Source of the DNA: a virus
Virus record (IMG/VR): IMGVR_UViG_3300008111_000132
Coordinates: 1-29,030 of that record
Direction: 5' to 3' (one strand)
DNA: 29,030 bases
The notes below the pieces were generated by a model that was not told the DNA's origin, searched no databases, and saw only the letters and a program-made list of their open reading frames with translations. A program made the position numbers and the translations under genes. Shown here piece after piece: positions 13,099-28,485 of the stretch; position 1 is the stretch's first letter, and each line of letters opens with the position of its first letter.

Positions 13099-13194
13099 AA
13101 TATTGTCTGGCAAATGTCATACGAAGTTTTTGCCAAACAATATTGGCGAGGACCAGTCTGACCCCAGTGTTGTCATACGAATGTTGTTTGGCAA
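13099..13194. repeat. Intergenic inverted repeat 1 (three half-sites)
   Basis: AATATTGTCTGGCAAA (13099-13114) faces TTTGCCAAACAATATT (13129-13144) with one mismatch and a 14-nt spacer that contains GTCATACGAA. A third half-site TTGTTTGGCAA (13184-13194) lies just after another GTCATACGAA (13172). Confidence 0.8.
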
Positions 13195-13206
13195 AATGGT
13201 CGGGTA

Positions 13207-14175
13207 TTAACTAAAGTCGATTTCGTATTTAGCGAACTGTTTTTTTAGGTGATCTTTAATTTCTCTATAAAGGTCCCAATCATCAGTTGCTGTAAGTGGT
13301 TTCCCGTCATACGACTCAAATGACGCAGTAAGTGAAATACTATAATCGGGGATGATGGTATTTGTTCGAGGGTCTATCAATGTTGCGGGATTATAGTCGT
13401 ATTTGCTGGTTGAATATAGATATATACCATTACCCATACCCATTCGTAATACGTATGGTTTCCCTTTGTACATACCCTTGGATAATGCTTTGAGAATTAC
13501 TTTTCCTCTTTTAACGGATCTTAATCTTTCCTCATCAAAATTATCAGAGAACTTAGCAATTAAGTTTTCAGGGATAACAAGTGTATTACGAATGGCCTGT
13601 CTTTGAAAACTATTTAAATCATTAAACGACTTAACCTCTTGTTTGGGTACGTCGAATATGTTTTCCTGTATTGTTTGTCCGTGACCGAAAAGAAACTTCA
13701 TATCTAATTCCGTCATCAAAGTTTTTGCAACCTGACTTGGAATTACTTCTCTTAAATTAAAATTAAACGAACCATTGTCATACGTTCTAAACCCTTCGAT
13801 TGGATAATCCACATCTGGCATTGACATTGACATTTTACCATTACCTATGGCTTCATTGGTGAACAGGTGTAATCCATGTTTTATACCTAAGTTATATATG
13901 TGTACAAAAATATCGAACATACATGTGGGACTTATTTGTGCACCTCCGTCTAATCTAAAATCAGGTAATATTCTTAAGTTACCCTCATGGGAACTACTTG
14001 AGCTGATTGCACATTTTGCTTCAGCGTTTTCAATTCTGAAGTCTAACGATGAAAAGTCTTTTGAAATTTTAAATATAGCCTCTTCAAAATCAACCTTACT
14101 ATCATTGAATTCAAATTCCTTCTTTGGTTCTTGGTTCTCCCCGTCTTCCATTAGTATGTCATACATCTTGATCAT
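13207..14175 (-). CDS. Hypothetical protein with short MYDILMED leader, 322 aa
   Basis: The start is ATG 14175 (MIKMYDILMED) or ATG 14166 (MYDILMED); the frame continues upstream only through a dispersed repeat copy via a TTG. The protein is soluble and mixed alpha/beta. It has an N-terminal Asp/Glu-rich part, a Ser-rich stretch (SSSSSHEG, near residue 60), and a C-terminal part with KGKPYVLRMGMGNGIYLY. I do not recognise a family. A short leader ending in ILMED followed by a polar linker recalls virion-associated proteins elsewhere in the window. It is the last gene on this strand before the gene-free region. Confidence 0.7.
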   Translation of the reverse strand: MIKMYDILMEDGENQEPKKEFEFNDSKVDFEEAIFKISKDFSSLDFRIENAEAKCAISSSSSHEGNLRILPDFRLDGGAQISPTCMFDIFVHIYNLGIKHGLHLFTNEAIGNGKMSMSMPDVDYPIEGFRTYDNGSFNFNLREVIPSQVAKTLMTELDMKFLFGHGQTIQENIFDVPKQEVKSFNDLNSFQRQAIRNTLVIPENLIAKFSDNFDEERLRSVKRGKVILKALSKGMYKGKPYVLRMGMGNGIYLYSTSKYDYNPATLIDPRTNTIIPDYSISLTASFESYDGKPLTATDDWDLYREIKDHLKKQFAKYEIDFS

Positions 14176-14189
14176 AATAATAAATACTT

Positions 14190-14200
14190 TTGCCAAACAA
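14190..14200 (-). repeat. Single TTGTTTGGCAA half-site before a gene start
   Basis: On the - strand ATATTGTTTGGCAAAA ends 12 nt before the ATG at 14175. This is one of three single copies placed just upstream of - strand genes. Confidence 0.7.
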
Positions 14201-14245
14201 TATCTACCGTCTTCTTGGATCCTGAATCAGGAGACACTGTTTAAT

Positions 14246-14290
14246 AAAAAAATCCCAAGTGCAGACTTGGGGGTCTACACGTTGGGATTT
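14246..14290 (-). terminator. Rho-independent terminator with nested stems
   Basis: On the - strand AAATCCCAA and TTGGGATTT form the outer stem, followed by T7. An inner alternative CCCAAG/CTTGGG also exists. It ends the unit containing the 62-aa basic protein. Confidence 0.8.
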
Positions 14291-14337
14291 AACGACCGAT
14301 ATATAATTAAAGGGCTTTAAAACCCTCAAATCATATA

Positions 14338-14526
14338 TTAGGCTGTTGCAAGGAGCTGATTGCGATAAGCAATTGCATTTCTCTTAGAAGAGAAATTCTT
14401 GCTGTATTTAGTTCCAGCTACACTTACACGTACACGATAGGATGAACCATCGAAGTACACATTGCTTGAAACCGGTACATAAGTAGTTTTAGTACGACGG
14501 TTTCGGTTGGTTGTTGATTTTTTCAT
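14338..14526 (-). CDS. Small basic AP2/Arm-type DNA-binding-like protein, 62 aa
   Basis: An Arg/Lys/Thr-rich head (about residues 1-15) is followed by VYFDGSSYRVRVSVAGTKYSKNFSSKRNAIAYRNQLL, read as three beta strands and a helix. This is the pattern of AP2-like and integrase Arm-type DNA-binding domains (YRVRVxVxGxKxxxxFxxxxxAxxYRNxLL). A protein this small with no catalytic domain is a candidate DNA-binding regulator. It lies next to several copies of the dispersed repeat, so it is one candidate for the protein that reads them. Confidence 0.7.
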   Translation of the reverse strand: MKKSTTNRNRRTKTTYVPVSSNVYFDGSSYRVRVSVAGTKYSKNFSSKRNAIAYRNQLLATA

Positions 14527-14605
14527 ATAACATTTGGTTTATATTAAAATATAACATCCAAAAGTCATAAAAAAAAATATCCGGCAACTTTTTTTAAAAA
14601 AGTTT

Positions 14606-14616
14606 TTGCCAAGCAA
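14606..14616 (-). repeat. Half-site variant TTGCTTGGCAA
   Basis: One base differs from the consensus. It lies in the 112-nt gap before the 62-aa gene, next to the near-perfect repeat AACTTTTTTT/AAAAAAGTT (14586-14604). Confidence 0.6.
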
Positions 14617-14638
14617 TATCGCCCGATCATCTCCTCCC

Positions 14639-14782
14639 TCAGGGTTTCTTCTTATATCGAGAACCCCACTTGATGGACATGTATGCATCATACCTGTGTC
14701 TCTTCATCCCATTGAAGAGAAAGTACACAAAGTAGTAATCCCAAATCCATTCCAACTCTTTAAAGAACTTCTTCATAAGCAT
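14639..14782 (-). CDS. Hypothetical aromatic basic protein, 47 aa
   Basis: ATG at 14782 (or 14776) opens a 47-codon frame: MLMKKFFKELEWIWDYYFVYFLFNGMKRHRYDAY and a basic end. The Trp/Tyr/Phe-rich middle (about residues 7-24) could dip into a membrane. The composition is protein-like and the gap is otherwise empty, which supports a real gene. The half-site ATATTGTTTGGCAAAA ends only a few nt before its start. Confidence 0.55.
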   Translation of the reverse strand: MLMKKFFKELEWIWDYYFVYFLFNGMKRHRYDAYMSIKWGSRYKKKP

Positions 14783-14786
14783 AATT

Positions 14787-14797
14787 TTGCCAAACAA
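14787..14797 (-). repeat. Half-site next to the 47-aa gene start
   Basis: TTGTTTGGCAA on the - strand, ending 4 nt before the ATG at 14782. It could affect translation if it is in the mRNA. Confidence 0.7.
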
Positions 14798-14827
14798 TAT
14801 CCGACAGACTCATCCTGATCTGAACCG

Positions 14828-15028
14828 TCAGATATTATTATGATACTCGAGATCTTCTTTGTTTATTGATTCAAGATTGAACTCATCGTACAATTGTTTC
14901 AGGACCCTGAGTTCACCTTCAGATCGATACTCTTCTTCAGGGCTGTCGAAATATCCTAAATCAATTCTGTTTGTTAATGAGTCGATCTTAGTAACGATCC
15001 ACAACATTAAAATGGGTTTATTTATCAT
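14828..15028 (-). CDS. Hypothetical protein, 66 aa
   Basis: A soluble acidic protein with a beta-like start (PILMLWIVTKIDSLTNRIDLGYF) and a Glu-rich helical end (SPEEEYRSEGELRVLKQLYDEFN). It lies downstream of the terminator at 15058. No clear promoter is visible, so it may depend on readthrough. Not a recognised family. Confidence 0.65.
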   Translation of the reverse strand: MINKPILMLWIVTKIDSLTNRIDLGYFDSPEEEYRSEGELRVLKQLYDEFNLESINKEDLEYHNNI

Positions 15029-15057
15029 GATATAATAGTTTTACAATTTTATGGGAC

Positions 15058-15083
15058 AAAAAAAAGGACTCTTGTTAGAGTCC
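15058..15083 (-). terminator. Rho-independent terminator overlapping a stop codon
   Basis: On the - strand GGACTCT and AGAGTCC pair over a four-base loop, followed by T8. The stop codon of the DUF4241 gene (15075-15077) lies in the loop, so the stem is also the end of the gene. Confidence 0.9.
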
Positions 15084-15662
15084 GTGTAAAGCTGGATGAA
15101 TCTTTCCTTTTACTCCCCTTGGTCGATACTTACCCTCCTCATCGATGTAGAAGTCAATAATCAATCCAACCACCTTACGGTTAACTCTTGCCACATACAG
15201 TGTATATGACCCATCTCCAATTCCTGAACGAGTCACCACACCATTTTCATATGAACCCCACTCAAGTTTTGCTAAAGTGATCTTACACATCTTCAGGTAC
15301 CAATCGTCCCCGTCTTTGGTGACAGGAAGCTCGAACGGTCTTCCATCATATGTTTCTGTTGGTACATCCATATCAATACCGTCGACTCTGTAAGTTTCCT
15401 TACTGAAGATACCGGCCTGACCTGAATCAACACCAATCTCAGCAGAATACTTTCTCCACGTGAGATCCTGATCAAGATAATCCTCGTGGATAGCTGTTAG
15501 ATACGCAATTCTGTTGCCCCAACCATCTGTTTCCATTTCAGTGGCATTAGCAACATAGGATCCAGGTAATACATTCTTTACAATGGCTTGGCACCAAGTT
15601 GGAATGGTGTAGCAGGGATCGGATACTACTACTTCTTTTCCGAGTGTGATTTTGTTTGTCAT
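15075..15662 (-). CDS. DUF4241-family protein
   Basis: The 195-residue product has the DUF4241 hallmarks: VSDPCYTIP near the start, LPGSYVA, GWGNRIAYLTAIH, then IGVDSGQAGIF at 77-86, and a C-terminal SGIGDGSYTLYVARVNRKVVGLIIDF. The family has no established activity; a compact beta-rich fold is likely. There is no signal peptide. The start ATG lies inside the dispersed motif TTCGTATGACA (15658-15667). The stop lies in the loop of its terminator. It is the last gene of the unit transcribed from about 17335. Confidence 0.8.
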   Translation of the reverse strand: MTNKITLGKEVVVSDPCYTIPTWCQAIVKNVLPGSYVANATEMETDGWGNRIAYLTAIHEDYLDQDLTWRKYSAEIGVDSGQAGIFSKETYRVDGIDMDVPTETYDGRPFELPVTKDGDDWYLKMCKITLAKLEWGSYENGVVTRSGIGDGSYTLYVARVNRKVVGLIIDFYIDEEGKYRPRGVKGKIHPALHGL

Positions 15663-15667
15663 ACGAA
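15658..15667 (-). promoter_or_regulatory. TTCGTATGAC motif over a start codon
   Basis: An exact copy of the 10-mer also present in spacers. Here its ATG is the start codon of the DUF4241 gene. Confidence 0.6.
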
Positions 15668-15898
15668 TCAGGGTTTTAATGTTTCTAATATTCTTTCGTA
15701 AATCTTTCTTGTTAAAGAACTGTCCACTGTTCCACCAGGTATTACACGGTCCCTACAGACGATATCACCTGATAAACAATCAACCTCTTTTACCAAAACA
15801 GAATCAAAAAGTATTGGAGATGGGAATCTAACAATACCCTTTGTTCCTTTTGATAATCCAACTTGGAGTGCTTCATTTCTAAGCTCTAAGAATTCCAT
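15668..15898 (-). CDS. Hypothetical protein, 76 aa
   Basis: A small, probably beta-rich protein (TKGIVRFPSPILFDSVLVKEVD, then GDIVCRDRVIPGGTV), ending in a helix with Leu repeats. No signal, metal motif or recognised family. It ends 5 nt before the DUF4241 start and is in the same unit. Confidence 0.7.
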   Translation of the reverse strand: MEFLELRNEALQVGLSKGTKGIVRFPSPILFDSVLVKEVDCLSGDIVCRDRVIPGGTVDSSLTRKIYERILETLKP

Positions 15899-15934
15899 AT
15901 GATAAAGGTATTACATTAACTGGAATATTCCAAA

Positions 15935-16435
15935 TTAATTTGTGATATTTTTATAGATGCTTTCGTACTTCTTGATATTCTCCTGAATTTCAACATCCAT
16001 AGCTTTTACTAACTTGGAATATGCTTTATCCATAAAGTCCTGATTGCCAGACAATTTATCAAGATCACCGTCCCAAAACTCGAGGTTATCTACAATGACA
16101 CGTATATCCTTAGTTGTCTTATCAGTTCTAAAAAATGGACAACGAGCGTAGATATATTCATTACGTACTATGTTGAGCTTGATGTCATCGTTCGTCAGAT
16201 TTTCCTTGGACCTGATTTGCATGATGATCACTTCAAGATCAGCAAGTTGCTGAATCTCTGTCTTTGTCTTCGTGATTAGATCCTGATATGATTTAACAAA
16301 CTGACCCAACTTCTTGGATTCCTTATTTGCCAGTGAACTTCCATAATCCATGAACCTGTCGTAAGAACTTTTTTCTTTTTCATTACCTACGACATTTACA
16401 AACACACCTTCGATGTTCTTGTTTACTCTACCCAT
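15935..16435 (-). CDS. Hypothetical coiled-coil-like protein, 166 aa
   Basis: Mostly helical and charged, with a probable coiled coil in residues 40-80 (GQFVKSYQDLITKTKTEIQQLADLEVIIMQI). A compact C-terminal half follows, with ARCPFF and DNLEFWDGDLDKLSG. Not a recognised family. The short leader before it includes a dispersed-repeat half-site (16471) that is also the end of the preceding gene. Confidence 0.7.
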   Translation of the reverse strand: MGRVNKNIEGVFVNVVGNEKEKSSYDRFMDYGSSLANKESKKLGQFVKSYQDLITKTKTEIQQLADLEVIIMQIRSKENLTNDDIKLNIVRNEYIYARCPFFRTDKTTKDIRVIVDNLEFWDGDLDKLSGNQDFMDKAYSKLVKAMDVEIQENIKKYESIYKNITN

Positions 16436-16458
16436 AATTGCAGTTTTTGTTTTTTGTT

Positions 16459-16656
16459 TTAAAAATTATTTTGCCAAACAATATTGGACATCTCCTCAGA
16501 TCTGTTGTTCTTGAGATGTTCAATGTACTCGAGAAACGTCATTCCGAATCCATTCGGAACATCGTGCAACCTCCTACCGACATTGAATTCGTTAATCCAA
16601 TCTTGTTCCGATGGTTGATCCACGGGATACGTGCTTGTCATGATGTTAATACTCAT
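16459..16656 (-). CDS. Hypothetical protein, 65 aa, ending in the dispersed motif
   Basis: Starts at ATG 16656 with further in-frame ATGs near by. It is a soluble acidic protein (DQPSEQDWINEFNVGRRLHDVP, FLEYIEHLKNN). Its last codons are formed by the repeat: AATATTGTTTGGCAAAATAAT reads NIVWQNN, then F and stop. The repeat thus seems to have entered or supplied the C-terminus. No family is recognised. Confidence 0.65.
   Translation of the reverse strand: MSINIMTSTYPVDQPSEQDWINEFNVGRRLHDVPNGFGMTFLEYIEHLKNNRSEEMSNIVWQNNF
16471..16481 (-). repeat. Half-site inside a coding end
   Basis: TTGTTTGGCAA on the - strand with AATA before it. It is the only copy I found that is clearly within a gene. 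Confidence 0.7.
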
Positions 16657-16666
16657 TTGTTATGAT

Positions 16667-16897
16667 TTAACGGTTATAAATTTTTTTATATTCCTTATCG
16701 GTCAAGAACCTGAAAGGTGAAGTAATCTTCTTACCAAGAAGCAAGAGTCCCATCACATGGTCAATTTTCTCGATGTCATCAATAAGAGCTCGATTACCCT
16801 GTGCAGGATGTTTGATGTTGTTGATTGTTGTGTACAATCTTTCTTCGATGGAATCAACTACATAAGTTGACTCGAAGGTTTCTTTTTTCTTTGCCAT
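16667..16897 (-). CDS. Hypothetical protein, 76 aa
   Basis: A basic, Lys-rich start (MAKKKE) leads into a helical protein with one hydrophobic patch (VMGLLLLGKKI, about residues 48-58) that is too short for a membrane helix. It lies 10 nt upstream of the 65-aa gene and 12 nt after the preceding stop. Not a recognised family. Confidence 0.7.
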   Translation of the reverse strand: MAKKKETFESTYVVDSIEERLYTTINNIKHPAQGNRALIDDIEKIDHVMGLLLLGKKITSPFRFLTDKEYKKIYNR

Positions 16898-16909
16898 GGT
16901 TTTTTGTTT

Positions 16910-17302
16910 TTAAAATTTAGTTACGAAAAGTTTATAATCAACTGTACCGATTTCAATGAAACTAAGGTTATCCGCATTTACACTATCATTATAAATCCAA
17001 TTGGGATTCTCTCTCGGATTATATTTCAACCTAACACACATGGAGTACGTGTCATACGGATCAAACCCATCAAACTTTACATCTATCGAATCACACAAGA
17101 TCCATGCACAAACTGTCTTGTGTTCACCGTCAAAGATCTTCTGTGCGGTCTTCTTATTGTTCTTGAGTGTACATCCTTTCATCACGAGCTGCGTTGATGT
17201 AGGTGATACATATTCCACCTCACCAGATGGATACTGTATTTTCCATTTCATATAATTCTGACCTCGCCCAAGATTAAAACGAACTTTAATTTTCTTGCTC
17301 AT
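16910..17302 (-). CDS. Hypothetical beta-rich protein, 130 aa
   Basis: Start ATG 17302 (MSKKIKVRFN) or the in-frame ATG 17320, which adds MTQIKN and lies inside the motif TTCGTATGACA. Both fit a promoter whose -7 ends at 17341. The protein is soluble and beta-rich (KKIKVRFNLGRG, MKWKIQYPSGEVEYVSP) with an Asn/Asp-rich C-terminus. It is the first gene of a six-gene unit running to 15075. No family is recognised. Confidence 0.7.
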   Translation of the reverse strand: MSKKIKVRFNLGRGQNYMKWKIQYPSGEVEYVSPTSTQLVMKGCTLKNNKKTAQKIFDGEHKTVCAWILCDSIDVKFDGFDPYDTYSMCVRLKYNPRENPNWIYNDSVNADNLSFIEIGTVDYKLFVTKF

Positions 17303-17340
17303 GTTTTTGATCTGTGTCATACGAATAATATTAGGAGTTA

Positions 17341-17372
17341 CAAAGATATAACAGGGATACGAATATACCAAA
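17341..17372 (-). promoter_or_regulatory. Promoter inside a 12-bp inverted repeat
   Basis: On the - strand TTTG (17369-17372) and TATCTTTG (17341-17348), 20 nt apart. The arms ATAACAGGGATA (17348-17359) and TATCCCTGTTAT (17375-17386) flank the -33 box, so a protein on this repeat would block or help the polymerase. TTCGTATGAC follows at 17316. Confidence 0.75.
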
Positions 17373-17395
17373 TATATCCCTGTTATTTTTTTATA

Positions 17396-18154
17396 TTATT
17401 GGATTACAAATTTATTTGTATCCACGAGTTTATTTCGGACCCGTTTAAATTTCAAACCGACAATGACGTTTTTATCATCTCTGTACCTCATGTCATAAAG
17501 ATCTCCATTGATTACAGGACGACCCCAAAAGGTTTCGGGTACATCTTTAAAAACTACCGCCACCCTGATGTCATTGTTCAACATACTAATACAGTCCTGA
17601 AAATTAGAACCACTGTAGGAAAATGTGATATCATAATTCGGATACTTCTTTACCAACTCCAAACGTTTAGCAACCTTTGTGTAATCGTAAAATTGAACGT
17701 CAGAAAAGATCTCCAAAATATTTTGTTTGCGACCGTCAACATCTAAGTAAAATGATTCAGGTGAGATGTCACTCGTGTTATTCAGACGTACACTGAAATG
17801 AAGATCTTCATTGATCGATCTTTGCCAGGCATTATAGATCTCATCGATCATCCACTTCATAAAGAATTCTCGATGTTCAAAAAACAGTTTTGTCTTCTTG
17901 ATTCGTGATGCATTAATCTTGTTCTCCTTAACGTCCATTTTATTACGCCCTGATTCATTCAAACACAATTGTGTACATTCAGGGGTCCTTTTCGGACAAA
18001 CTTCGTATCCACTCATTTTAGCAGGTGCGAGATAAAGTGTGTAAACAAGTTCGTCATACTTATAAGCTTTCTCATGTTTGGTCGAATTGTTAACCATTCC
18101 GAGGTATGACAAACCTGTCAACTTCTTTGCTTGTGCAATTGATTTGTATTCCAT
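17396..18154 (-). CDS. GP88-like phage protein
   Basis: ATG 18154 (MEYKSIAQAK) is preferred; the frame runs further only via TTG. The 252-residue protein matches the pattern I associate with the mycobacteriophage gene-product-88 family: LAPAKMSGYEVCPKRTPEC with CTQLC (C53, C60, C64), SGR and a basic patch, then SVRLNNTSDISPESF, FYDYTKVAKRL, ITFSYSG and a C-terminal VINGDLYDMRYRD. The clustered cysteines could bind a metal or an Fe-S cluster. Function unproven. It has its own promoter overlapping the end of the gene upstream. Confidence 0.75.
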   Translation of the reverse strand: MEYKSIAQAKKLTGLSYLGMVNNSTKHEKAYKYDELVYTLYLAPAKMSGYEVCPKRTPECTQLCLNESGRNKMDVKENKINASRIKKTKLFFEHREFFMKWMIDEIYNAWQRSINEDLHFSVRLNNTSDISPESFYLDVDGRKQNILEIFSDVQFYDYTKVAKRLELVKKYPNYDITFSYSGSNFQDCISMLNNDIRVAVVFKDVPETFWGRPVINGDLYDMRYRDDKNVIVGLKFKRVRNKLVDTNKFVIQ

Positions 18155-18172
18155 ATAATTTGATTTGTGATA

Positions 18173-18203
18173 CAAAGATATAAATTTTATTTAATTCTAC
18201 AAA
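18173..18203 (-). promoter_or_regulatory. Bacteroidota-type promoter
   Basis: On the - strand TTTG (18200-18203) and TATCTTTG (18173-18180), 19 nt apart, just after the stop of the 203-aa gene. It serves the GP88-like gene. Confidence 0.8.
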
Positions 18204-18204
18204 A

Positions 18205-18816: not shown

Positions 18817-18828
18817 GTGTGTGTTTAT

Positions 18829-19149
18829 TTAAAGTAAAGCAATGATTTGTTTTCTTTTATCTACGTATTTTACAAGTCGTTTGATAAATGCATCGGCACC
18901 CTGTTTGCTCTTGAAGTAAGCAAAGAATTGACAGTACTCACTATCCTCGTCCGCAGATTTAGTAAGAACTTTGTTTTCTTTAAGACGTTCAACAACATCG
19001 TAATTACTTTCGCAGTTGTCAAATGTTTCGAGTGCTCTAAGATCTGCAGTGACGGTCCAATGTTTGTCATCACTACCCTTGTACGGTTTCAAACTTTCAG
19101 CCTTAAATGATCTCCCTTCTGTTGAGAGAGAATAGAATACTTTGTCCAT
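18829..19149 (-). CDS. Hypothetical protein, 106 aa
   Basis: A soluble, charged protein (KAESLKPYKGSDDKHWTVTADLRAL, then FDNCESNYDVVERLKENK), ending in a basic helix (FIKRLVKYVDKRKQ). Not a recognised family. It is the first gene of its unit, 20 nt after the -7 box. Confidence 0.7.
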   Translation of the reverse strand: MDKVFYSLSTEGRSFKAESLKPYKGSDDKHWTVTADLRALETFDNCESNYDVVERLKENKVLTKSADEDSEYCQFFAYFKSKQGADAFIKRLVKYVDKRKQIIALL

Positions 19150-19169
19150 GGTTATAATGTTTTAGGATA

Positions 19170-19214: not shown

Positions 19215-19253
19215 AATTTTGTGAAGGTGAATTCACCTGTGCCGGGATTCGTT

Positions 19254-19308
19254 GATATTGTCTGGCAAGTCGAGTAGATCCCGTCCAACCTATTTGCCAA
19301 ACAATATC
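19254..19308. repeat. Intergenic inverted repeat 2
   Basis: GATATTGTCTGGCAA (19254-19268) faces TTGCCAAACAATATC (19294-19308) with one mismatch and a 25-nt spacer. Positions 19282-19315 are identical over 34 nt to 21603-21636. Confidence 0.85.
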
Positions 19309-19350
19309 CTTAGCTGTTGCTGCGCACAGTAGAAGATGAGGTAACAGCAA

Positions 19351-19380: not shown

Positions 19381-19414
19381 ACACTTACTAAACCATTAGA
19401 AAAAAAACCAAATG

Positions 19415-19770: not shown

Positions 19771-19791
19771 GTCATACGAATTGCCAAACAA
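19771..19791 (-). repeat. Fused pair of dispersed motifs
   Basis: On the - strand TTGTTTGGCAA is followed directly by TTCGTATGAC with no spacer. This is the only place where the two motifs abut. It has no facing arm. Confidence 0.8.
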
Positions 19792-19892: not shown

Positions 19893-20678
19893 TTAAATCA
19901 AACGAAGATTCAACTTCTCATTTTCCCTACGGCGATAATTGTAAATGTCCTCAATCATCACAGAGTAAGCTCTCTTATCACCGCAAAGATGAATTGAACC
20001 CGGACGAAGTTTAACCTTATGGATAAATTCATCAAACTTAAATCCCTTCTTCTTCTCGGCAATAGTGAGAATTGCTCTCACAAAGTTTGACTTATTGTAC
20101 CCCTTTTCAAAGTAAGGTTTAATTTCAAGAAGGTGATTTGCCCACTTCTCAGCGGTTTTCACACTTGCGATATTAAACTTACCTTTTTGGAATTGCTCCG
20201 TACTTGGATGCTTTGTTCCGCTATTTTGCAGAAGCATCATTCTTTCGGTAAGTGAGAACATTGGGTACTTATCACCAAACTCTTGGAGAATTTGGAAGTT
20301 CTCATTTCCCATTTCGGAGTAACCATGAATATAATCGTTCTTACGAACTTTCTTCTTCCACATATTATATTTGAGGAAGGCGTCAAAGATACCCTTTTTG
20401 GTGAGAGGAATTTCCTCATCAATTACATAATACACACCAACACCCGCGAGTCTTGCTGCGGACAATCTATGTTGTCCATCGGCAGTCCAATGAACACCAT
20501 TCTTATCTTTTCTTGTTACAACAATAGGTTCAGTATAACGAAACCCATTGACCTTCATGTCATCAGCGATTTCACGAATTTGGTTTTGAGATTGAGAATC
20601 CGTGATTTCACGATTAACTTTTACGAGTTGAAATCTATCAAGATTCGTTTCGTAGAGAATACTTTTATTCTTACTCAT
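19893..20678 (-). CDS. ParB-like nuclease-fold protein
   Basis: The 261-residue protein has a ParB/Spo0J N-terminal fold at about residues 20-95: NREITDSQSQNQIREIADDM, then EPIVVTRK and the conserved ADGQHRLSAARLAG (DGQHR at 67-71). A helical region with SLTERMMLLQNSGTKHPSTEQF follows, possibly helix-turn-helix. The rest is basic. ParB folds bind or cut DNA and can hydrolyse CTP. In phages they act in partition, gene control or DNA modification. No ParA is seen here. It sits alone with a promoter and terminator and is the second candidate for a protein that binds the dispersed repeats. Confidence 0.8.
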   Translation of the reverse strand: MSKNKSILYETNLDRFQLVKVNREITDSQSQNQIREIADDMKVNGFRYTEPIVVTRKDKNGVHWTADGQHRLSAARLAGVGVYYVIDEEIPLTKKGIFDAFLKYNMWKKKVRKNDYIHGYSEMGNENFQILQEFGDKYPMFSLTERMMLLQNSGTKHPSTEQFQKGKFNIASVKTAEKWANHLLEIKPYFEKGYNKSNFVRAILTIAEKKKGFKFDEFIHKVKLRPGSIHLCGDKRAYSVMIEDIYNYRRRENEKLNLRLI

Positions 20679-20860: not shown

Positions 20861-20913
20861 TTGTTTGGCAAATTGATCTACTCGAGATCTCCTCACTGTT
20901 AATTGCCAAACAA
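20861..20913. repeat. Intergenic inverted repeat 3
   Basis: TTGTTTGGCAA (20861-20871) and TTGCCAAACAA (20903-20913) match perfectly, with a 31-nt spacer. Confidence 0.85.
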
Positions 20914-21576: not shown

Positions 21577-21629
21577 AATATTGTTTGGCAAGTGAATATG
21601 GTCGTCCAACCTATTTGCCAAACAATATC
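21577..21629. repeat. Intergenic inverted repeat 4
   Basis: Half-sites TTGTTTGGCAA (21581-21591) and TTGCCAAACAA (21615-21625), perfect match, flanked by AATA and TATC, with a 23-nt spacer. A third copy is at 21699-21709. Confidence 0.85.
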
Positions 21630-21649
21630 CTTAGCTCACGGTACCACTC

Positions 21650-21693
21650 GTACCCGAAGTACCCGAAGTACCCGAAGTACCCGAAGTACCCGA
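21650..21693. repeat. Tandem repeat of GTACCCGAA
   Basis: Four full 9-bp units and one of 8 bp in a row. The same unit occurs about twice at 26313-26331. On the - strand the unit reads Thr-Ser-Gly in one frame. Confidence 0.85.
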
Positions 21694-21753
21694 TCTGTTT
21701 GCCAAACAAATTACAATCTGTTGCACATGCGTTGCAGCCAAATTGCACAAAAC

Positions 21754-22503: not shown

Positions 22504-22524
22504 TTGTTTTGTTTTTAATTGTTT

Positions 22525-23205: not shown

Positions 23206-23593
23206 GAATTTTGTTATTAAGTTGTTGAACAATAAGTTTTCCTTCTTCGGTATCAAGTTCTTTTACTCCATTACACATCCAGGGTTGGACTTCCAAATGT
23301 TTCAAATAATCTTGTGGTGTTGGTACGAACTTCATACGAAAGTCCTCTGCGATATGTAACATCGCCACATCAACTACATCAACACTTTTGCCATCACTAT
23401 TAGTGATATTGTAACCAAAAATTTTTGGTACAATAGTATAAGCGAACCAAGTGTTATGAGTAAGGAGCCGTGAACTATTATTGTTCATTGTCGCTTTTGG
23501 ACTATCAATCAATTCGTGGATAGCGAGGTAATCTTCTACTTTACCACCCCAACGCTTGACCGAAGATTTTGAATGAATGAGAGGATTTGCCAT
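23195..23593 (-). CDS. DUF6915-family protein
   Basis: The 132-residue product begins MANPLIHSKSSVKRWGGKVEDYLAIHELIDSPKA, then LTHNTWFAYTIVPKIFG, NSDGKSVDVVDVAMLHIAEDF and PTPQDYLKHL. These parts fit the DUF6915 family (HxxSSxxxxGGxxEDYxxIHxxxD, then NSDG and HxxED). The conserved His and Asp suggest a metal or active site, but its role is unknown. It is coupled to the acidic gene downstream. Confidence 0.8.
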   Translation of the reverse strand: MANPLIHSKSSVKRWGGKVEDYLAIHELIDSPKATMNNNSSRLLTHNTWFAYTIVPKIFGYNITNSDGKSVDVVDVAMLHIAEDFRMKFVPTPQDYLKHLEVQPWMCNGVKELDTEEGKLIVQQLNNKIHAN

Positions 23594-23611
23594 AGTGTTT
23601 TGTTTTGTTGG

Positions 23612-23875
23612 TTAATCCCAAACTCTTTCAATAGTTTGTGTAAATGGATTGTACTCAACTTGTTTTCCCATTGACCACTCACCTTTTTCAATTTTCAATG
23701 TTTGGTGTTCATTACTGAATGAGCCGTCAGGTTGTTCGTGTTTCAACAAACTATCTTTTGTTACAACCAGATCAGTAAATTCGGTTTCCGTTTCATCAAT
23801 TTTGAAATCACCATACAAAGTGTGTTGATTTACTCCTTCACCTTTGAGGAGCGTGTGTTTCTTTTTTGCTTTCAT
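23612..23875 (-). CDS. Hypothetical protein, 87 aa
   Basis: Lys-rich head (MKAKKKHTLLKG), then a compact beta pattern (NQHTLYGDFKIDE, EFTDLVVTKDSLLKHEQ, TLKIEKGEWSMGKQVEYNPF) ending in ERVWD. Similar small proteins occur on mobile elements, but none has a function I know. It is the first gene of its unit, 19 nt from the -7 box. Confidence 0.72.
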   Translation of the reverse strand: MKAKKKHTLLKGEGVNQHTLYGDFKIDETETEFTDLVVTKDSLLKHEQPDGSFSNEHQTLKIEKGEWSMGKQVEYNPFTQTIERVWD

Positions 23876-23894
23876 TGTTTAATAATTTAGAATA

Positions 23895-23939
23895 CAAATA
23901 TAAAGATAATAAATGAATAAAACAAATTTATTTTGTTAA
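23895..23939 (-). promoter_or_regulatory. Promoter with upstream TTAACA box
   Basis: On the - strand TTAACA (23934-23939), TTTG (23923-23926), 20 nt, TATATTTG (23895-23902). It drives the four genes to 21805. Confidence 0.85.
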
Positions 23940-23977
23940 AATTTTGTGAAGGAAGAAGACAGGTGTGGCCCAGTTTT

Positions 23978-24042
23978 GATATTGTCTGGCAACCCCTTCC
24001 ACATCTGTCCCCCTGTCATACGAATCTTTGCCAAACAATATC
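23978..24042. repeat. Intergenic inverted repeat 5 with enclosed motif
   Basis: GATATTGTCTGGCAA (23978-23992) faces TTGCCAAACAATATC (24028-24042) with one mismatch. The spacer includes GTCATACGAA (24015-24024). A GCGCATGCGC palindrome follows at 24044-24053. Confidence 0.85.
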
Positions 24043-24081
24043 GGCGCATGCGCGCGCTGCGATCGACAGCAACTTCAGAGC

Positions 24082-24111
24082 AAAAAAAAGCCCCTCGTAG
24101 AAACGAGAGGC
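24082..24111 (-). terminator. Rho-independent terminator
   Basis: On the - strand GCCTCTCG and CGAGGGGC pair (one wobble), followed by T8. It ends the DUF932 gene. The loop and lower stem resemble the terminator at 28525. Confidence 0.9.
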
Positions 24112-24149
24112 GTGGTTAAAAAGATTAACCTAAACCAACATCTTATGTC

Positions 24150-24998
24150 TTACACCAGTTGAGCCAAGTCATTAAAGATTTCAAGTTCTCTTTTACCATA
24201 CACATTAAACATCTTCTCATCAGACCTATCATCTTTTGAAACCGAATGTGTAGTGTATTTTGTTACGCCACTAAACAATCCCCAAAGGTTCTCACCCTTT
24301 GTTCTCAATTCACCATTAAGGTCAATATAAAAGCGAGAGAGTTTGTTACGAGTAACGGTTGGAATAGCGTCCTCATTTTTCAAATCAATTTCTTTTTTGA
24401 TATTGAAAAGTTTTCTAATCACATTATCTTGAATAGCGTCATCAAATCTTGTTTCGCTAAACCTAACAATGTTATCAAATACATAACGTTCTTCAACCAA
24501 TGCGTTATCCAATCTGCGACAAATTTCGTCAATCCTCACATTCATATTTTTGGTATGACGAACCTTTGTTTCCAATTCACGAAAAGCTGCGAAGAATTTA
24601 TTTTGACAACTAATCGTAATGTTACTGGGTCCAAAAGCAAGTGAAGTTGAGCCGTCAAATGAATTAATGCCAGTCAAATATCCTTCAATCCTATCATTAC
24701 CAAGAGTGAGGTTATTTGATTTAAGTTGAATGAATACGCGAGCACCTTCTTTGAAGTGTCCACCATTTTTAATCTCCAATCCACTACGTTGAGAAACTTT
24801 GTCAAGAAGTTCAATCAGCTCATAGTTCTGAAAAGGGAAATACTCATCACTACGAATAGACAAAGGAACATTCGTATCATCACGAATAATTGCTTTTTGT
24901 CCAGGAATTTCAATTCCGCTTTCAGTAACTACATTTTCTGTTCTTACTTTCCAATTAAGACCAGTTTTTTCCAACAGTTCAATAAGTTGTTCGTTCAT
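24150..24998 (-). CDS. DUF932-family phage/plasmid protein
   Basis: ATG 24998 (MNEQLIELLEKTGLNWKVRTENV) is preferred; the longer frame crosses the promoter. The 282-residue protein follows the DUF932 plan: LNWKV start, PLSIRSDEYFPFQNYELIELLD, GGHFKEGARVFIQLKS, GYLTGINSFDGSTSLAFG, ISCQNKFFAAF and VRHTKNM. DUF932 proteins are common on phages and conjugative plasmids, often with recombination or anti-defence genes. Their activity is unknown. It is a one-gene unit with its own promoter and terminator. Confidence 0.85.
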   Translation of the reverse strand: MNEQLIELLEKTGLNWKVRTENVVTESGIEIPGQKAIIRDDTNVPLSIRSDEYFPFQNYELIELLDKVSQRSGLEIKNGGHFKEGARVFIQLKSNNLTLGNDRIEGYLTGINSFDGSTSLAFGPSNITISCQNKFFAAFRELETKVRHTKNMNVRIDEICRRLDNALVEERYVFDNIVRFSETRFDDAIQDNVIRKLFNIKKEIDLKNEDAIPTVTRNKLSRFYIDLNGELRTKGENLWGLFSGVTKYTTHSVSKDDRSDEKMFNVYGKRELEIFNDLAQLV

Positions 24999-25017
24999 AT
25001 AAATTTGATTTAGGATA

Positions 25018-25049
25018 CAAAGATATATCATTTATATTCCTTTTCCAAA
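25018..25049 (-). promoter_or_regulatory. Bacteroidota-type promoter without TTAACA box
   Basis: On the - strand TTTG (25046-25049) and TATCTTTG (25018-25025), 20 nt apart. It drives DUF932. Confidence 0.85.
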
Positions 25050-25089
25050 TTATTTTGAATCTTTTTTTCAGGATCTGCCGGCGTATCCC

Positions 25090-25158
25090 AATGTTGTTTG
25101 GCAAATGTAATACCTCGACTCAAGAAAATTTGTTCCGAACCACTTGCCAAACAATATC
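25090..25158. repeat. Intergenic inverted repeat 6
   Basis: TTGTTTGGCAA (25094-25104) faces TTGCCAAACAA (25144-25154) with a 39-nt spacer. Also present are two copies of AGCAGCGCTTCTGGT (25166-25180, 25198-25212) and a third half-site TTGCCAGACAA (25227-25237) inside ATCTTG-CCAGA-CAAGAT. Confidence 0.85.
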
Positions 25159-25274
25159 AAGCCAGAGCAGCGCTTCTGGTGCAACTGGCACTTCTGAAGC
25201 AGCGCTTCTGGTAGATGTAGTACATCTTGCCAGACAAGATCGAGAGCTTTGCGCTAAACTGTATCCTGAACAGC

Positions 25275-25302
25275 AAAAAAAATCCCCGACTTTCGCCGAG
25301 GA
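25275..25302 (-). terminator. Rho-independent terminator with GAAA loop
   Basis: On the - strand TCCTCGGC and GTCGGGGA pair (two wobbles) over GAAA, followed by T8. It ends the unit 25327-26117. Confidence 0.88.
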
Positions 25303-25326
25303 CCTTTCTAAACTAAAACACAGAAC

Positions 25327-25902
25327 CTACACTTTCTCCATTTCATTCTTCATGTAATACTCCACCATACCTTTCGCTTCACCCATACAATCTTCTTCAC
25401 CATAATAACCCCAACAACTATCCAATTCCTTTTTGTGTTCGTGTCCGTGGTCACATTCACTTACTTCATATACTTTGTAACCATAAACGTCACCCGTAAG
25501 GTATTGGTCATACGTTTCAACTTCACCTTTAAGGTATTGTTCAATTTTACTTTCATCAATCCCATCTTTCTTCACTTTGTCTTTTGATACAAAGATCCAA
25601 CCAACTTGTCCACTATCCCAACGACAACTAAAACCCGTTGTGTTCATTGTAATACCCGAGTGGTCATAAAGATACAAAGGTAAGATAGTGTGTACATTTT
25701 CTTGTTTAATAATTTCTTCTTTCATTTCCTCCCACCCGTCGTAATTGCCAGAACAATAGTCGTGTTTATCACCCAGATCATATCTTCGATGAAAACATAC
25801 CATTGTACCCAAGTTATCCCATTCCCGAGGACTTTCAGGACTTTGGTCAGGGTAAATTTCAATAAGATACTTTCCGATTCTTTCAGTGTTTACTGTTTCC
25901 AT
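25327..25902 (-). CDS. Conserved phage hypothetical protein, 191 aa
   Basis: The 191-residue protein has a pattern found in many phage hypothetical proteins: FHRRYDLGD, LPLYLYDHSGITM, FSCRWDSGQVGWIFVS, then YDQYLTGDVYGYKVYEV. The YDHSGI and WDSGQVG blocks are strongly conserved in those relatives and suggest a folded catalytic or binding domain, but no function is known. It is acidic and Tyr-rich with several Cys. It is the second gene of its unit, 11 nt after the 67-aa gene. Confidence 0.75.
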   Translation of the reverse strand: METVNTERIGKYLIEIYPDQSPESPREWDNLGTMVCFHRRYDLGDKHDYCSGNYDGWEEMKEEIIKQENVHTILPLYLYDHSGITMNTTGFSCRWDSGQVGWIFVSKDKVKKDGIDESKIEQYLKGEVETYDQYLTGDVYGYKVYEVSECDHGHEHKKELDSCWGYYGEEDCMGEAKGMVEYYMKNEMEKV

Positions 25903-25913
25903 TGTGTTTAGTA

Positions 25914-26117
25914 TTAGTAGTTAAAAATAAGGTCAGATACCATTCTTTGTACATTCGGTACGGTTACACAAAGATTATCCCTTGTATTACCCCATTGTTC
26001 CCATTCACCTTGTTTGTCAATACAGAACATTGTTTTGGTACCATCAGTCAATTTGAAGTACCCCTTAATTTCTTTACCAATTTTGGTAAGTTTCGTTGTT
26101 TTTACTTTTGTTGTCAT
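25914..26117 (-). CDS. Hypothetical protein, 67 aa
   Basis: A Lys/Thr-rich start (MTTKVKTTKLTKIGKEIKGYF), then GTKTMFCIDKQGEWEQWGNTRDNLCVTVPNV and a helical end. The GEWEQWGN stretch is shared with small conserved phage proteins of unknown role. First gene behind the promoter at 26137. Confidence 0.72.
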   Translation of the reverse strand: MTTKVKTTKLTKIGKEIKGYFKLTDGTKTMFCIDKQGEWEQWGNTRDNLCVTVPNVQRMVSDLIFNY

Positions 26118-26136
26118 GTGTTTAAAATTTAGAATT

Positions 26137-26181
26137 CAAATATACAACTAATAAAATGATATTCCAAAAAATAATTGTTAA
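26137..26181 (-). promoter_or_regulatory. Promoter with upstream TTAACA box
   Basis: On the - strand TTAACA (26176-26181), TTTG (26165-26168), 20 nt, TATATTTG (26137-26144). Span 45 nt. Confidence 0.85.
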
Positions 26182-26221
26182 GATTATCATAATACATCCA
26201 AGATCCCTGAAGACGCCAGAT

Positions 26222-26285
26222 AATATTGTTTGGCAATTCACACCAAGACATCTTGAGTCTCGATCTACATTTGCCAAACAAGATT
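26222..26285. repeat. Intergenic inverted repeat 7
   Basis: TTGTTTGGCAA (26226-26236) faces TTGCCAAACAA (26271-26281) with a 34-nt spacer. ATCTTGAGTCTC in the spacer recurs at 27652-27663. Two GTACCCGAA units follow at 26313-26331. Confidence 0.85.
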
Positions 26286-26332
26286 CAACATCCGGAGAAC
26301 CTGATGTCCCACTCGTACCCGAAGTACCCGAA

Positions 26333-26363
26333 ATAAAAAACCCCCGATTAATTCGAGGGTTCT
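26333..26363 (-). terminator. Rho-independent terminator overlapping a stop codon
   Basis: On the - strand AACCCTCGA and TCGGGGGTT pair over ATTAA, followed by T6. The stop codon of the 33-aa gene lies in the loop, as in the terminator at 15058. Confidence 0.88.
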
Positions 26364-26449
26364 TCAATATCACAATGTTCTTTACATTCGGAACATATTG
26401 GGTCTTCGGTGTTCCACACTTCAGCCCCACAACAAGTACTAACATTCAT
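26348..26449 (-). CDS. Mini zinc-ribbon protein, 33 aa
   Basis: ATG at 26449 encodes MNVSTCCGAEVWNTEDPICSECKEHCDIEE. The CCGAE and CxxCxxxC pattern is typical of very small zinc-ribbon proteins often seen in Bacteroidota and their phages. It is too short for usual gene finders but has a perfect fit to the terminator loop. It is the last of three genes from the promoter at 27023. Confidence 0.7.
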   Translation of the reverse strand: MNVSTCCGAEVWNTEDPICSECKEHCDIEEPSN

Positions 26450-26459
26450 GTTATAATTT

Positions 26460-26786
26460 TTAAATAGTGTAACAATATCCTCTAACAACTTCACAAACAT
26501 TCTTCATTGTTTTTTCTTTAAGTTTGGGGTATTGTGTTAATTGTTTTTTTAATTTCTTAATTTCTTTTTCAATTTTAGTATGTCTATTAGACATCATAAT
26601 AATTAAAACATTTTCTCTATCGGCGGTATCACCATCACCCCAATAATCAGTATCTACAATTTCAAGGTACTCATCAATACCGACATTAATTTCTTTATCG
26701 GTAAAAAAATTGGTCATCTCACCTTTACCATAAAACATTTTAACGTAATCAAAAAAACTTTTTCTCTCGGTGTTGTTTAATTTCAT
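26460..26786 (-). CDS. Hypothetical protein, 108 aa
   Basis: A soluble protein with a helical, basic middle and end (NRHTKIEKEIKKLKKQLTQYPKLKEK) and an acidic N-terminal half (TDKEINVGIDEYLEIVDTDYWGDGDTADRE). The WGDGDTADR region looks like a metal or phosphate loop but matches no family I know. Between the 68-aa gene (9-nt gap) and the 33-aa zinc gene (10-nt gap). Confidence 0.7.
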   Translation of the reverse strand: MKLNNTERKSFFDYVKMFYGKGEMTNFFTDKEINVGIDEYLEIVDTDYWGDGDTADRENVLIIMMSNRHTKIEKEIKKLKKQLTQYPKLKEKTMKNVCEVVRGYCYTI

Positions 26787-26795
26787 ATAGTTTAT

Positions 26796-27002
26796 TTAGT
26801 AGTTATCGTGTAATAGTTTCTCTATCTTATCCCACTCTTTCATTGGGAGAGGTTTTAATATTCCTTCATTAACGTGATTAACACAAATCGCCGAACCAAT
26901 ATCATACGGGTCTTGTGTCAGTACATCATAAGTTTCTTCACCATTGATACTAACACGATATACCACAAAATTGGTTTTCTCAACTTCAACTTGATTTTTC
27001 AT
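26796..27002 (-). CDS. Hypothetical protein, 68 aa
   Basis: A small beta-plus-helix protein (EKTNFVVYRVSINGEETYDVLTQDPYDIG, then PMKEWDKIEKLLHDNY). No motif is recognised. It is the first gene behind the array promoter at 27023. Confidence 0.7.
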   Translation of the reverse strand: MKNQVEVEKTNFVVYRVSINGEETYDVLTQDPYDIGSAICVNHVNEGILKPLPMKEWDKIEKLLHDNY

Positions 27003-27022
27003 AGTGGTTTAAGTTTAGGATA

Positions 27023-27067
27023 CAAATATACAATGTATATTGTTAATGTGGTGTTAAAGATCGTTAA
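27023..27067 (-). promoter_or_regulatory. Array promoter: three phased TTAAC boxes, no -33
   Basis: On the - strand TTAACG (27062-27067), TTAACA (27052-27057), TTAACA (27041-27046), 10 nt, TATATTTG (27023-27030). The boxes repeat every 10-11 bp and the -33 TTTG is missing. The nearest box is exactly 10 nt from the -7 in all four array promoters. Confidence 0.75.
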
Positions 27068-27105
27068 AGTTTTGTTATGAAATTTAACCCGTGGTGTGAC
27101 ACGAT

Positions 27106-27116
27106 TTGCCAAACAA
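27106..27116 (-). repeat. Single dispersed half-site
   Basis: TTGTTTGGCAA on the - strand in the spacer of the 26796 unit, without a facing arm. The following CAACTGGAGAC recurs at 27688-27698. Confidence 0.75.
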
Positions 27117-27151
27117 TTTCCAACTGGAGACGACTCAGGAATTCTTTGGAC

Positions 27152-27179
27152 AAAAAAAACCCCTGACTTTCGTCAAGGG
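27152..27179 (-). terminator. Rho-independent terminator with GAAA loop
   Basis: On the - strand CCCTTGAC and GTCAGGGG pair (one wobble) over GAAA, followed by T8. It ends the gene 27203-27511. Confidence 0.9.
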
Positions 27180-27202
27180 TTAGGGGGATTGGGGGGAACT
27201 TG

Positions 27203-27511
27203 TTAGTTCCATTCAAACTTGATTGGTTCGAGGTCTTTAAGTTCGTGGTCATCAAACTCTCCGTCTTCTGGTTCATTGAAGAAACGAAACAACACATTCA
27301 TCTTTTCGTTCTCCCAAAAAACTCGGACTTCGGTTCGGTGTTCGGAAACGTAAAAGTTTTCCAACTTTTCCAATTCCTTAACAAACTTGTTCACATCATC
27401 ATAGTAAACGTCATCAGAAAAATCTTGTCCGTCCACTTCGAAGGTGTCAATGGTTTCACATTGTCCGTCATAGTCAAGTGTGAATTCGAGGTACATTTCA
27501 TTGTAAATCAT
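27203..27511 (-). CDS. Strongly acidic hypothetical protein, 102 aa
   Basis: About 30 of 102 residues are Asp or Glu against some 9 Lys/Arg, with many aromatic residues (DFSDDVYYDDVNKFVKELEKLENFY). The charge density and size recall DNA-mimic inhibitors of nucleases or restriction enzymes (such as Ocr or ArdA), but no sequence match is claimed. It has its own array promoter and terminator. Confidence 0.7.
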   Translation of the reverse strand: MIYNEMYLEFTLDYDGQCETIDTFEVDGQDFSDDVYYDDVNKFVKELEKLENFYVSEHRTEVRVFWENEKMNVLFRFFNEPEDGEFDDHELKDLEPIKFEWN

Positions 27512-27530
27512 AATGTATTAATTTAGAATA

Positions 27531-27586
27531 CAAATATACAATGTATATTGTTAAAAAAATCACAACGATTGTAAAAGTTTTGTTAA
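27531..27586 (-). promoter_or_regulatory. Array promoter, TTAACA boxes, no -33
   Basis: On the - strand TTAACA (27549-27554), then 10 nt, TATATTTG (27531-27538). Further upstream a near match TTTACA (27570-27575) and TTAACA (27581-27586) keep a 10-11 bp rhythm. Confidence 0.7.
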
Positions 27587-27627
27587 GAAGATATACCCTG
27601 AAATCACCCTGATCCGGAATCTTTATG

Positions 27628-27683
27628 TTGTCTGGCAACTCCCGTCAAGAGATCTTGAGTCTCCATCTGTATTTGCCAGACAA
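27628..27683. repeat. Intergenic inverted repeat 8 (compensated pair)
   Basis: TTGTCTGGCAA (27628-27638) faces TTGCCAGACAA (27673-27683). Here the C variant of the left arm is matched by G in the right arm. A second repeat GAGTCTCCA/TGGAGACTC (27657-27665, 27692-27700) overlaps it. Confidence 0.85.
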
Positions 27684-27716
27684 TTTACAACTGGAGACTC
27701 GGTGGTCCAGGTGGAC

Positions 27717-27750
27717 AAAAAAAATCCCTAACCTTACGGGGTTAGGGATT
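27717..27750 (-). terminator. Rho-independent terminator
   Basis: On the - strand AATCCCTAACC and GGTTAGGGATT form a perfect 11-bp stem, followed by a T-run. It ends the gene 27769-27981. Confidence 0.92.
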
Positions 27751-27768
27751 CATACCTAAATTTTCCTT

Positions 27769-27981
27769 CTACTCATTTTCATCACTCCACTTCTCATAGA
27801 CCTCATCAAACAATTCATTTTTGAGTTGGTCAATAGTGTACCCACTTTCGATACACTCTTCTACCCACTCATCACTTTCGGTGATTCCTTCCCAAGACTC
27901 GTGTGGTGGAAGACCCATGTTGGATTCAGTTTGAATGTGGTCGTAAATTCTCTCTTTTACTTCTTCGATTGAAAGTTTCAT
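27769..27981 (-). CDS. Strongly acidic hypothetical protein, 70 aa
   Basis: ATG 27981 (MKLSIEEVKERIYDHI) is used; the longer frame runs into the leader. About 21 of 70 residues are acidic against 5 basic, and it is mostly helical (ESDEWVEECIESGYTIDQLKNELFDEVYEKW). Like its neighbours it could be a DNA-mimic or host-factor inhibitor. Function unknown. Single-gene unit with its own array promoter. Confidence 0.7.
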   Translation of the reverse strand: MKLSIEEVKERIYDHIQTESNMGLPPHESWEGITESDEWVEECIESGYTIDQLKNELFDEVYEKWSDENE

Positions 27982-27999
27982 GTGATTTAATTTAGAATT

Positions 28000-28043
28000 C
28001 AAATATACAATGTATAATGTTAATACAATGTTAAGGTTGTTAA
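28000..28043 (-). promoter_or_regulatory. Array promoter: three phased TTAACA boxes
   Basis: On the - strand TTAACA at 28038-28043, 28029-28034 and 28018-28023, then 10 nt, TATATTTG (28000-28007). The most upstream boxes overlap the end of the 28040-28318 gene. Confidence 0.75.
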
Positions 28044-28318
28044 TTAGTAACGTACTCGTTGTTTTTTGTTACCGACATTCCACTATGAATAAATTCGGTC
28101 AAATGATTAAGGAACTTTTGATACAACTCGTTGTCAAACTGAATTGTGGGTTCTTTGTCTTCCAACTCTACATCATCAAACAAACTCTCGTTTTGGTCTT
28201 GACAATGTGTAAGTACCATGTGATTAAAATCACTACCATTCCACTCGTAGTTAATACAACTATCAATGTGGTTTTCAATAATGTCTTTGATTTCTTTTCT
28301 AATAATTTCGTTTACCAT
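28040..28318 (-). CDS. Hypothetical protein, 92 aa
   Basis: ATG 28318 (MVNEIIRKEIKDIIENHIDSCINYEWNG) is used; the longer frame crosses the promoter. It is soluble, with an acidic middle (QNESLFDDVELEDKEPTIQFDNEL) and a His-containing helix. Not a recognised family. No terminator is seen between it and the promoter of the next gene, so readthrough into 27769 is likely. Confidence 0.7.
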   Translation of the reverse strand: MVNEIIRKEIKDIIENHIDSCINYEWNGSDFNHMVLTHCQDQNESLFDDVELEDKEPTIQFDNELYQKFLNHLTEFIHSGMSVTKNNEYVTN

Positions 28319-28336
28319 AATTTTTAATTTAGGATA

Positions 28337-28371
28337 CAAATATACATTGGATATCGTTAATGTGGTGTTAA
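28337..28371 (-). promoter_or_regulatory. Array promoter: two phased TTAAC boxes
   Basis: On the - strand TTAACA (28366-28371), 5 nt, TTAACG (28355-28360), 10 nt, TATATTTG (28337-28344). No -33 TTTG. Confidence 0.75.
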
Positions 28372-28430
28372 CGTAATACGAATGTTGTGTTAAGAACCTG
28401 ATGACCCCAGAATCCAGGATCGAGATAAAT

Positions 28431-28485
28431 TTGTTTGGCAAACAGACCAGTCTTCCTCAAGATGTCATACGAATTTGCCAATCAA
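28431..28485. repeat. Intergenic inverted repeat 9 with enclosed motif
   Basis: TTGTTTGGCAA (28431-28441) faces the degenerate arm TTGCCAATCAA (28475-28485). GTCATACGAA (28464-28473) lies next to the right arm. Confidence 0.8.

Follow-up and report, generated by a model that had tools for sequence, protein, structure and literature searches.

The right half of a 29,030-nt stretch of virus DNA (IMGVR_UViG_3300008111_000132, positions 1–29,030; hereafter the window) carries a block of genes with a short repeated sequence, TTGTYTGGCAA, in the spacers between them. This 11-mer is present in 26 exact copies, from 13103 to 28441, and nowhere else in the window, against a mean of 0.05 copies and a maximum of one in dinucleotide shuffles of the window. 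Genes in the window and its relatives were called by simple open reading frame (ORF) rules and conservation. According to a hand-made gene list of the window, 24 of the 26 copies lie outside genes, the non-coding share of the right half being 22% (binomial p ~5e-14); the two coding copies are those at 16044 and 16471. A preliminary description of this DNA, which had counted about 27 copies with none in the first 13 kb and had predicted an excess over shuffled sequence and a low density in coding DNA and in the left half, was close to the mark. Near-copies at 14606..14616 (TTGCTTGGCAA, minus strand, upstream of a gene for an AP2-like protein) and at 28475 (TTGATTGGCAA) are placed like the exact ones. 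All 26 copies have an A at position -3, so the true site extends beyond the 11-mer: it is asymmetric, measures 14 bp with the 11-mer as its core, and reads AWRTTGTYTGGCAA (designated T1).

Nine pairs of T1 sites face each other, always in the order TTGTYTGGCAA then TTGCCARACAA, with arms complementary over 11–14 bp and inner spacers of 16–39 nt; the nine pairs and constant order described earlier are thus real, the ninth pair being counted with the one-mismatch copy at 28475. They are located at 13103..13140 (spacer 16, with the arms TTGTCTGGCAA / TTGCCAAACAA, where the block ends), 19258..19304 (spacer 25), 20861..20913 (31), 21581..21625 (23), 23982..24038 (35), 25094..25154 (39), 26226..26281 (34), 27628..27683 (34) and 28431..28485 (33, with the variant TTGATTGGCAA as its right half-site). 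Read along the minus strand of the window, which is the direction of the block's genes and is called sense here, a gene is usually followed by a hairpin terminator, a GATC-rich stretch, TTGTTTGGCAA, a spacer, TTGCCAAACAA, a Bacteroidota-type -33/-7 promoter (TATATTTG) and the next gene. Eight of the nine pairs conform, lying 33–128 nt past a terminator T-run and ahead of a Bacteroidota -7 box. The exception is the pair 13103/13130, and the site at 13130 also forms the one closely spaced divergent pair of the window, with a plus-strand site at 13184..13194 that is antisense to the block genes. Single sense sites, all on the minus strand, are found past a terminator (19781..19791), with a terminator on one side and a promoter on the other (27106..27116) and in the intergenic spacers of the fourth and sixth pairs (21699..21709 and 25227..25237, respectively). 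Three more stand at junctions with no -7 box: 14190..14200, just before the gene for a 322-aa protein (13207-14175), 14787..14797, at an intra-operon junction, and 16471..16481, which overlaps the 3' end of the ORF 16459-16656 upstream of a 166-aa gene. The earlier proposal that the pairs lie between a terminator and the next promoter, and are therefore probably missing from mature mRNA, fits the promoter-proximal pairs; it does not extend to these intra-operon single sites. The other coding copy, at 16044..16054 (minus strand), lies within the 166-aa gene over the codons L-S-G-N; it may be constrained by the protein, and it was given little weight, since the residues that it encodes are a conserved L-x-G-N and phages of another site class (T4, see below) keep it too. 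Tandem repeats of 9 nt, GTACCCGAA (sense GGGTACTTC), occupy 21636-21693 and 26301-26331, in intergenic spacers adjoining T1 sites.

A pattern scan of viral contigs yielded 29 stretches, and relatives carrying other motifs were traced by a search with the AP2-like protein; all are incomplete contigs, the largest fetched being 335 kb. Two contigs near-identical to parts of the window (G001 and G002, 99.9%) keep the T1 sites wherever they cover it, and the block of G002 extends about 4 kb beyond the right end of the window. Distant relatives (G004, G005, G007 (310 kb), G008 (335 kb), G010 and G024), typically with 40–65% protein identity, have genes for DUF932, GP88, DUF6915, ParB-like, AP2-like and other proteins in common with the window, not every contig having all of them. 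In these relatives, the sites are restricted to one block of 13–20 kb (23 of the 24 sites of G008 fall within 14 kb), and this gene-dense block, in which nearly all boundaries between genes are marked, is probably expressed early. The host of these large phages is probably a member of the Bacteroidota, as judged from promoter type alone. A host-encoded operator is not supported, given that the 14-mer has 0–5 copies in each of about 745 sampled Bacteroidota genomes and forms no regulon there; the T1 pairs of cellular genomes (GTDB) occur singly, a lone pair to each contig, and nowhere make up a dense set. Comparison with phage records at the DNA level gave zero matches, and the open literature searched holds no named element with the 11-mer sequence, in agreement with the preliminary description, matches by title appearing incidental.

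Other relatives have a homologous block with few or no T1 sites and a different motif: T2 (TTACTGGG) in G016, G018, G019 and G020 (20–64 T2 sites and at most two T1 sites each), T3 (TTGTTTCGCA) in G021 and T4 (TTAGTTTGGC) in G017, G022, G025 and G026, some of the T4 phages retaining several T1 sites (seven in G017, three in G025). The four consensuses have a common scaffold: AWaTTGTYTGGCAA for T1, WW.WTTACTGGGRa for T2, RAT.TTGTTTCGCAY for T3 and RAWTTAGTTTGGCaa for T4. The junction of the near-copy at 14606, upstream of the AP2-like gene, has T1, T2, T3 or T4 in relatives, and at the junction upstream of the 166-aa gene, the motif matches the class in most phages even though the preceding ORF runs into it with its 3' end. 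A motif of the phage's own class was found no more than 260 nt upstream from orthologous gene starts in 75 of 156 cases and a motif of another class in 13 of 468 (10 of these T1-like), a result indicative of consistency within genomes rather than independent prediction, because the class labels were taken from the motif counts themselves. The T1 sites are kept in the near-identical G001 and G002, and it is T2, T3 or T4 that occupies the corresponding junctions of these other relatives, which share the genes. The classes do not group on trees of DUF932 and of a 195-aa protein, each of which requires at least five label changes, and the starred branches of the 195-aa protein tree force at least three changes for T1 and at least two for T2. 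The classes are therefore not clades on these gene trees, and whole site sets have switched repeatedly.

The sites are also polar. Neighbouring sites no more than 70 nt apart are convergent in 58 cases and divergent in five, and isolated sites, pooled over T1, T2, T3 and T4, are sense in 96 cases and antisense in 30. Inner spacing within pairs follows no fixed register, ranging from 0 nt up to the 70 nt at which the search was limited. T1 is also present in a second, unrelated family of small phages (G003, G009 and G012–G015, at most 35 kb, together with fragments), with one to three T1 clusters per contig; inverted cases in this family are convergent in 14 of 14, some of the fragments being near-duplicates so that these cases are not all independent, and several lie between convergent gene ends. 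The overlap of this family with G008 consists mainly of tail-fibre-like proteins. Several of its T1 pairs (L019, L028; G003, G009, G012–G015) are located near TTATCCACA repeats, which resemble DnaA boxes.

A second motif, B (GTATKACA, often TTCGTATGACA), accompanies the T sites. It has 21 copies in the window between 12940 and 28747, against 2.6 expected, 18 of them sense (minus strand), with examples at 13115, 13171, 14157, 19770, 24014, 25106 and 28463; it is also enriched, mostly in the sense orientation, in phages of every class from T1 to T4. It is found near the AP2-like gene of G023 too, a contig without T sites. The AP2-like protein (62 aa, 14338..14526, minus strand) is conserved in all T classes and was recognized by fold only, not in Pfam or PHROGs scans; its model bears a weak likeness to integrase arm-binding and AP2 domains (best PDB matches 3rmp and 3jtz, E ~0.6, TM 0.5), and a connection of this protein to motif B, rather than to T specificity, may be guessed at.

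Several proteins were considered as recognizers of the T sites. The two binders suggested in the preliminary description both fell away: the core of the AP2-like protein is almost the same in T2 phages as in T3 phages, whose motifs differ completely, and the ParB-like protein (19893..20678, minus strand, phrog_12305) was not found in the T2 contigs G016, G018, G019 and G020, incomplete genomes in which sites abound. The fast-evolving 322-aa gene that follows the AP2-like gene was also set aside, its members being homologous but unplaced and its AlphaFold model poor (pLDDT 45); its product has no PHROG match, and a 307-aa stretch of it no Pfam match. Proteins with HNH or zinc modules flanking the blocks are the same in T1 and T2 phages. 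A screen of 63 families for covariation with class placed an RmlC-like epimerase at the top, but its T3 and T2 copies are almost identical, and such an enzyme is implausible as a binder.

These sequence patterns suggest, with a probability that we put at about 0.5, that the T sites are asymmetric, polar operator or roadblock sites for a phage regulator, similar to the stoperators of mycobacteriophages. The reading draws on polarity, on sites without promoters, on pairs between convergent gene ends and on the switching of sets together. A phage-encoded DNA-binding regulator would recognize AWRTTGTYTGGCAA and act in a polar manner: single intra-operon sites would block or trim sense-direction transcription passing through them, and a convergent pair that stands behind a terminator and ahead of a promoter would shut down or insulate its unit from both sides, gate the neighbouring promoter, or both. 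As the specificity of the regulator evolved, the whole site set would change with it, giving rise to the classes T1–T4. Protein binding, the phage origin of the binder and the roadblock or repressive effect are all what we infer here. An operator set for a phage regulator was one of three readings offered in the preliminary description, and it is the best supported of them, in view of the phage specificity and polarity of the sites, their position at junctions and their replacement set by set in relatives. Some points weigh against it. No recognizer was found and none of the 63 families contains a gene convincingly covarying with class; Pfam and PHROGs scans of the block proteins named no regulator other than the ParB-like protein, the L5 repressor gp71, which halts elongation and confers immunity, not being among the queries. 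The contigs are fragments, so the recognizer gene may simply be missing from them. No tyrosine integrase was found in 17 of 18 contigs, G008 included, which leaves a role in lysogeny immunity unproven. Finally, the promoter-proximal pairs sit upstream of the -33 element, so a roadblock is not the sole reading there.

That position leads to the main rival, a classical promoter-upstream operator or enhancer, in which a dimeric or looping regulator on facing half-sites upstream of -33 would switch initiation. Eight of the nine pairs in the window lie just upstream of a Bacteroidota promoter. In G010 (L035), and also in L030, L031 and L032, a double box TTAACA-N4-6-TTAACA, which looks like an activator or UP-type element, is found just upstream of -33; in G010, a -7 box lies downstream in 14 of 14 cases and a T site no more than 160 nt upstream in 10. 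Many sites are single, however, some with no promoter behind them, the second family has pairs between convergent gene ends, and an inner spacing of 0–70 nt without fixed register is poorly suited to this arrangement, which appears somewhat unlikely. An RNA or cruciform hairpin, with the facing arms pairing as processing, terminator or protein-binding stem-loops, could make use of the complementarity of convergent arms over 11–14 bp, but a hairpin is indifferent to arm order: divergent arms would give an equally good stem, yet the convergent order is favoured 58:5, and 14:0 in the second family. This bias, like the sense bias, speaks for an asymmetric bound site, and given that many sites are unpaired, that the pairs come after terminators and that there is no Rfam match, stem-loops seem highly improbable.

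Two further rivals were already raised in the preliminary description, and both have lost ground. Junction 14-mers might serve as module borders, that is, as homology or recombinase sites for gene exchange, as is said of the stem-loop cassettes of T-even phages, to which this reading is likened. The location of the sites at gene junctions, in a block rich in small, variably present genes and in several cases flanked by HNH-type proteins, would fit, but the motif is swapped for that of another class at orthologous junctions, homology has no need of a convergent or sense bias, and no recombinase covaries with class, making borders quite improbable, although recombination between T repeats could occur as a side effect. 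A reading as integron attC or Xer dif sites is not supported, given the inner spacing of 0–70 nt and the lack of a tyrosine recombinase in 17 of 18 contigs. In the partition reading, the sites would be parS- or Ter-like and would serve partition, DNA organization or replication blocking through a replication protein or the ParB-like one. The observed polarity and convergence would suit such sites, and a ParB-like gene does lie inside the block; this explanation is nevertheless very unlikely given that no such gene was found in the T2 contigs, which have the most numerous sites, and that the sites track gene junctions and the direction of transcription. In a more speculative idea, doubtful at present, the dispersed polar code would define compatibility groups of lytic jumbo phages, every unit of the block bearing the group's own tag and tags being exchanged one complete set at a time; unrelated small phages that have a tail-fibre-like protein in common with G008 would use an identical tag, either to be recognized by one and the same regulator or to evade it.

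The closest known parallel is provided by the stoperators of Cluster A (L5-like) phages, which are asymmetric, syn-oriented and clade-specific, number 20–30 per genome and are mostly not at promoters (PMC6550527); their repressor is monomeric when bound to asymmetric DNA (PMC9283540). The T sites are likewise short, asymmetric and numerous (26 in the window), mostly oriented with transcription (96:30 family-wide), and they have related but distinct clade-specific consensuses at syntenic positions in all four classes; as to promoters, the window pairs are promoter-proximal and the intra-operon singles are not. They differ from stoperators in host phylum and sequence, in being confined to one 13–20-kb block rather than spread over the whole genome, in their convergent pairing, in the presence of motif B and in the lack of evidence for lysogeny in most members. 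The extended start-associated sequences (ESAS) of Cluster K phages are inverted repeats with a variable spacer, located upstream of particular genes and conserved per gene family, with consensus changes specific to subclusters and a function that is not known (PMC3203893). The T pairs are similar in layout (inverted repeats, variable spacer, group-specific consensus), but ESAS arms are 17 bp long and tied to a start-associated sequence, whereas T arms are 11–14 bp long and lie before promoters or at gene ends, not as imperfect 17-bp inverted repeats directly ahead of such a sequence; T sites also frequently stand alone, and one motif gives way to another across an entire set. Intergenic repeats specific to halovirus HF2 are reported to go with its transcription units (PMC8707807) and to carry the promoters themselves, unlike the T sites, whose promoters are separate, of host type and downstream of the repeats. 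By analogy, the T-site system may thus work like stoperators and be laid out partly like ESAS, and it has been shown to be a member of neither.

The surroundings of the blocks have some further features. The first 13 kb of the window (1-13000) is free of T and B blocks; its small genes include four for tRNAs on the plus strand (2110-3449). Repeated CxCG...SCGC zinc-ribbon modules, in some cases together with an HNH-type end, characterize proteins encoded just outside T-site blocks (G005 44774-45874 and 60712-62100, G018 39191-40579, G021 12387-13682, G008 23673-24773). Otherwise unrelated proteins of L001:5530-5850 and G008 127536-127964 have a small C-terminal motif in common, PCWxGYExxGxKxxxGxxVPNCVP. 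RmlC-like (dTDP-sugar epimerase) proteins are of three diverged types (G008 268474-269019, G020 40403-40942 and others).

Dispersed asymmetric site codes of phages are known in detail mainly from mycobacteriophages. The four interchangeable site alphabets found at the same junctions constitute a natural experiment in which the specificity of a regulator would change jointly with that of its dozens of sites, and the system offers a route to the control protein of a group of jumbo phages about which little is understood. The presence of T1 in two unrelated phage families is, in addition, a hint that a common control code may be in use between unrelated phages.

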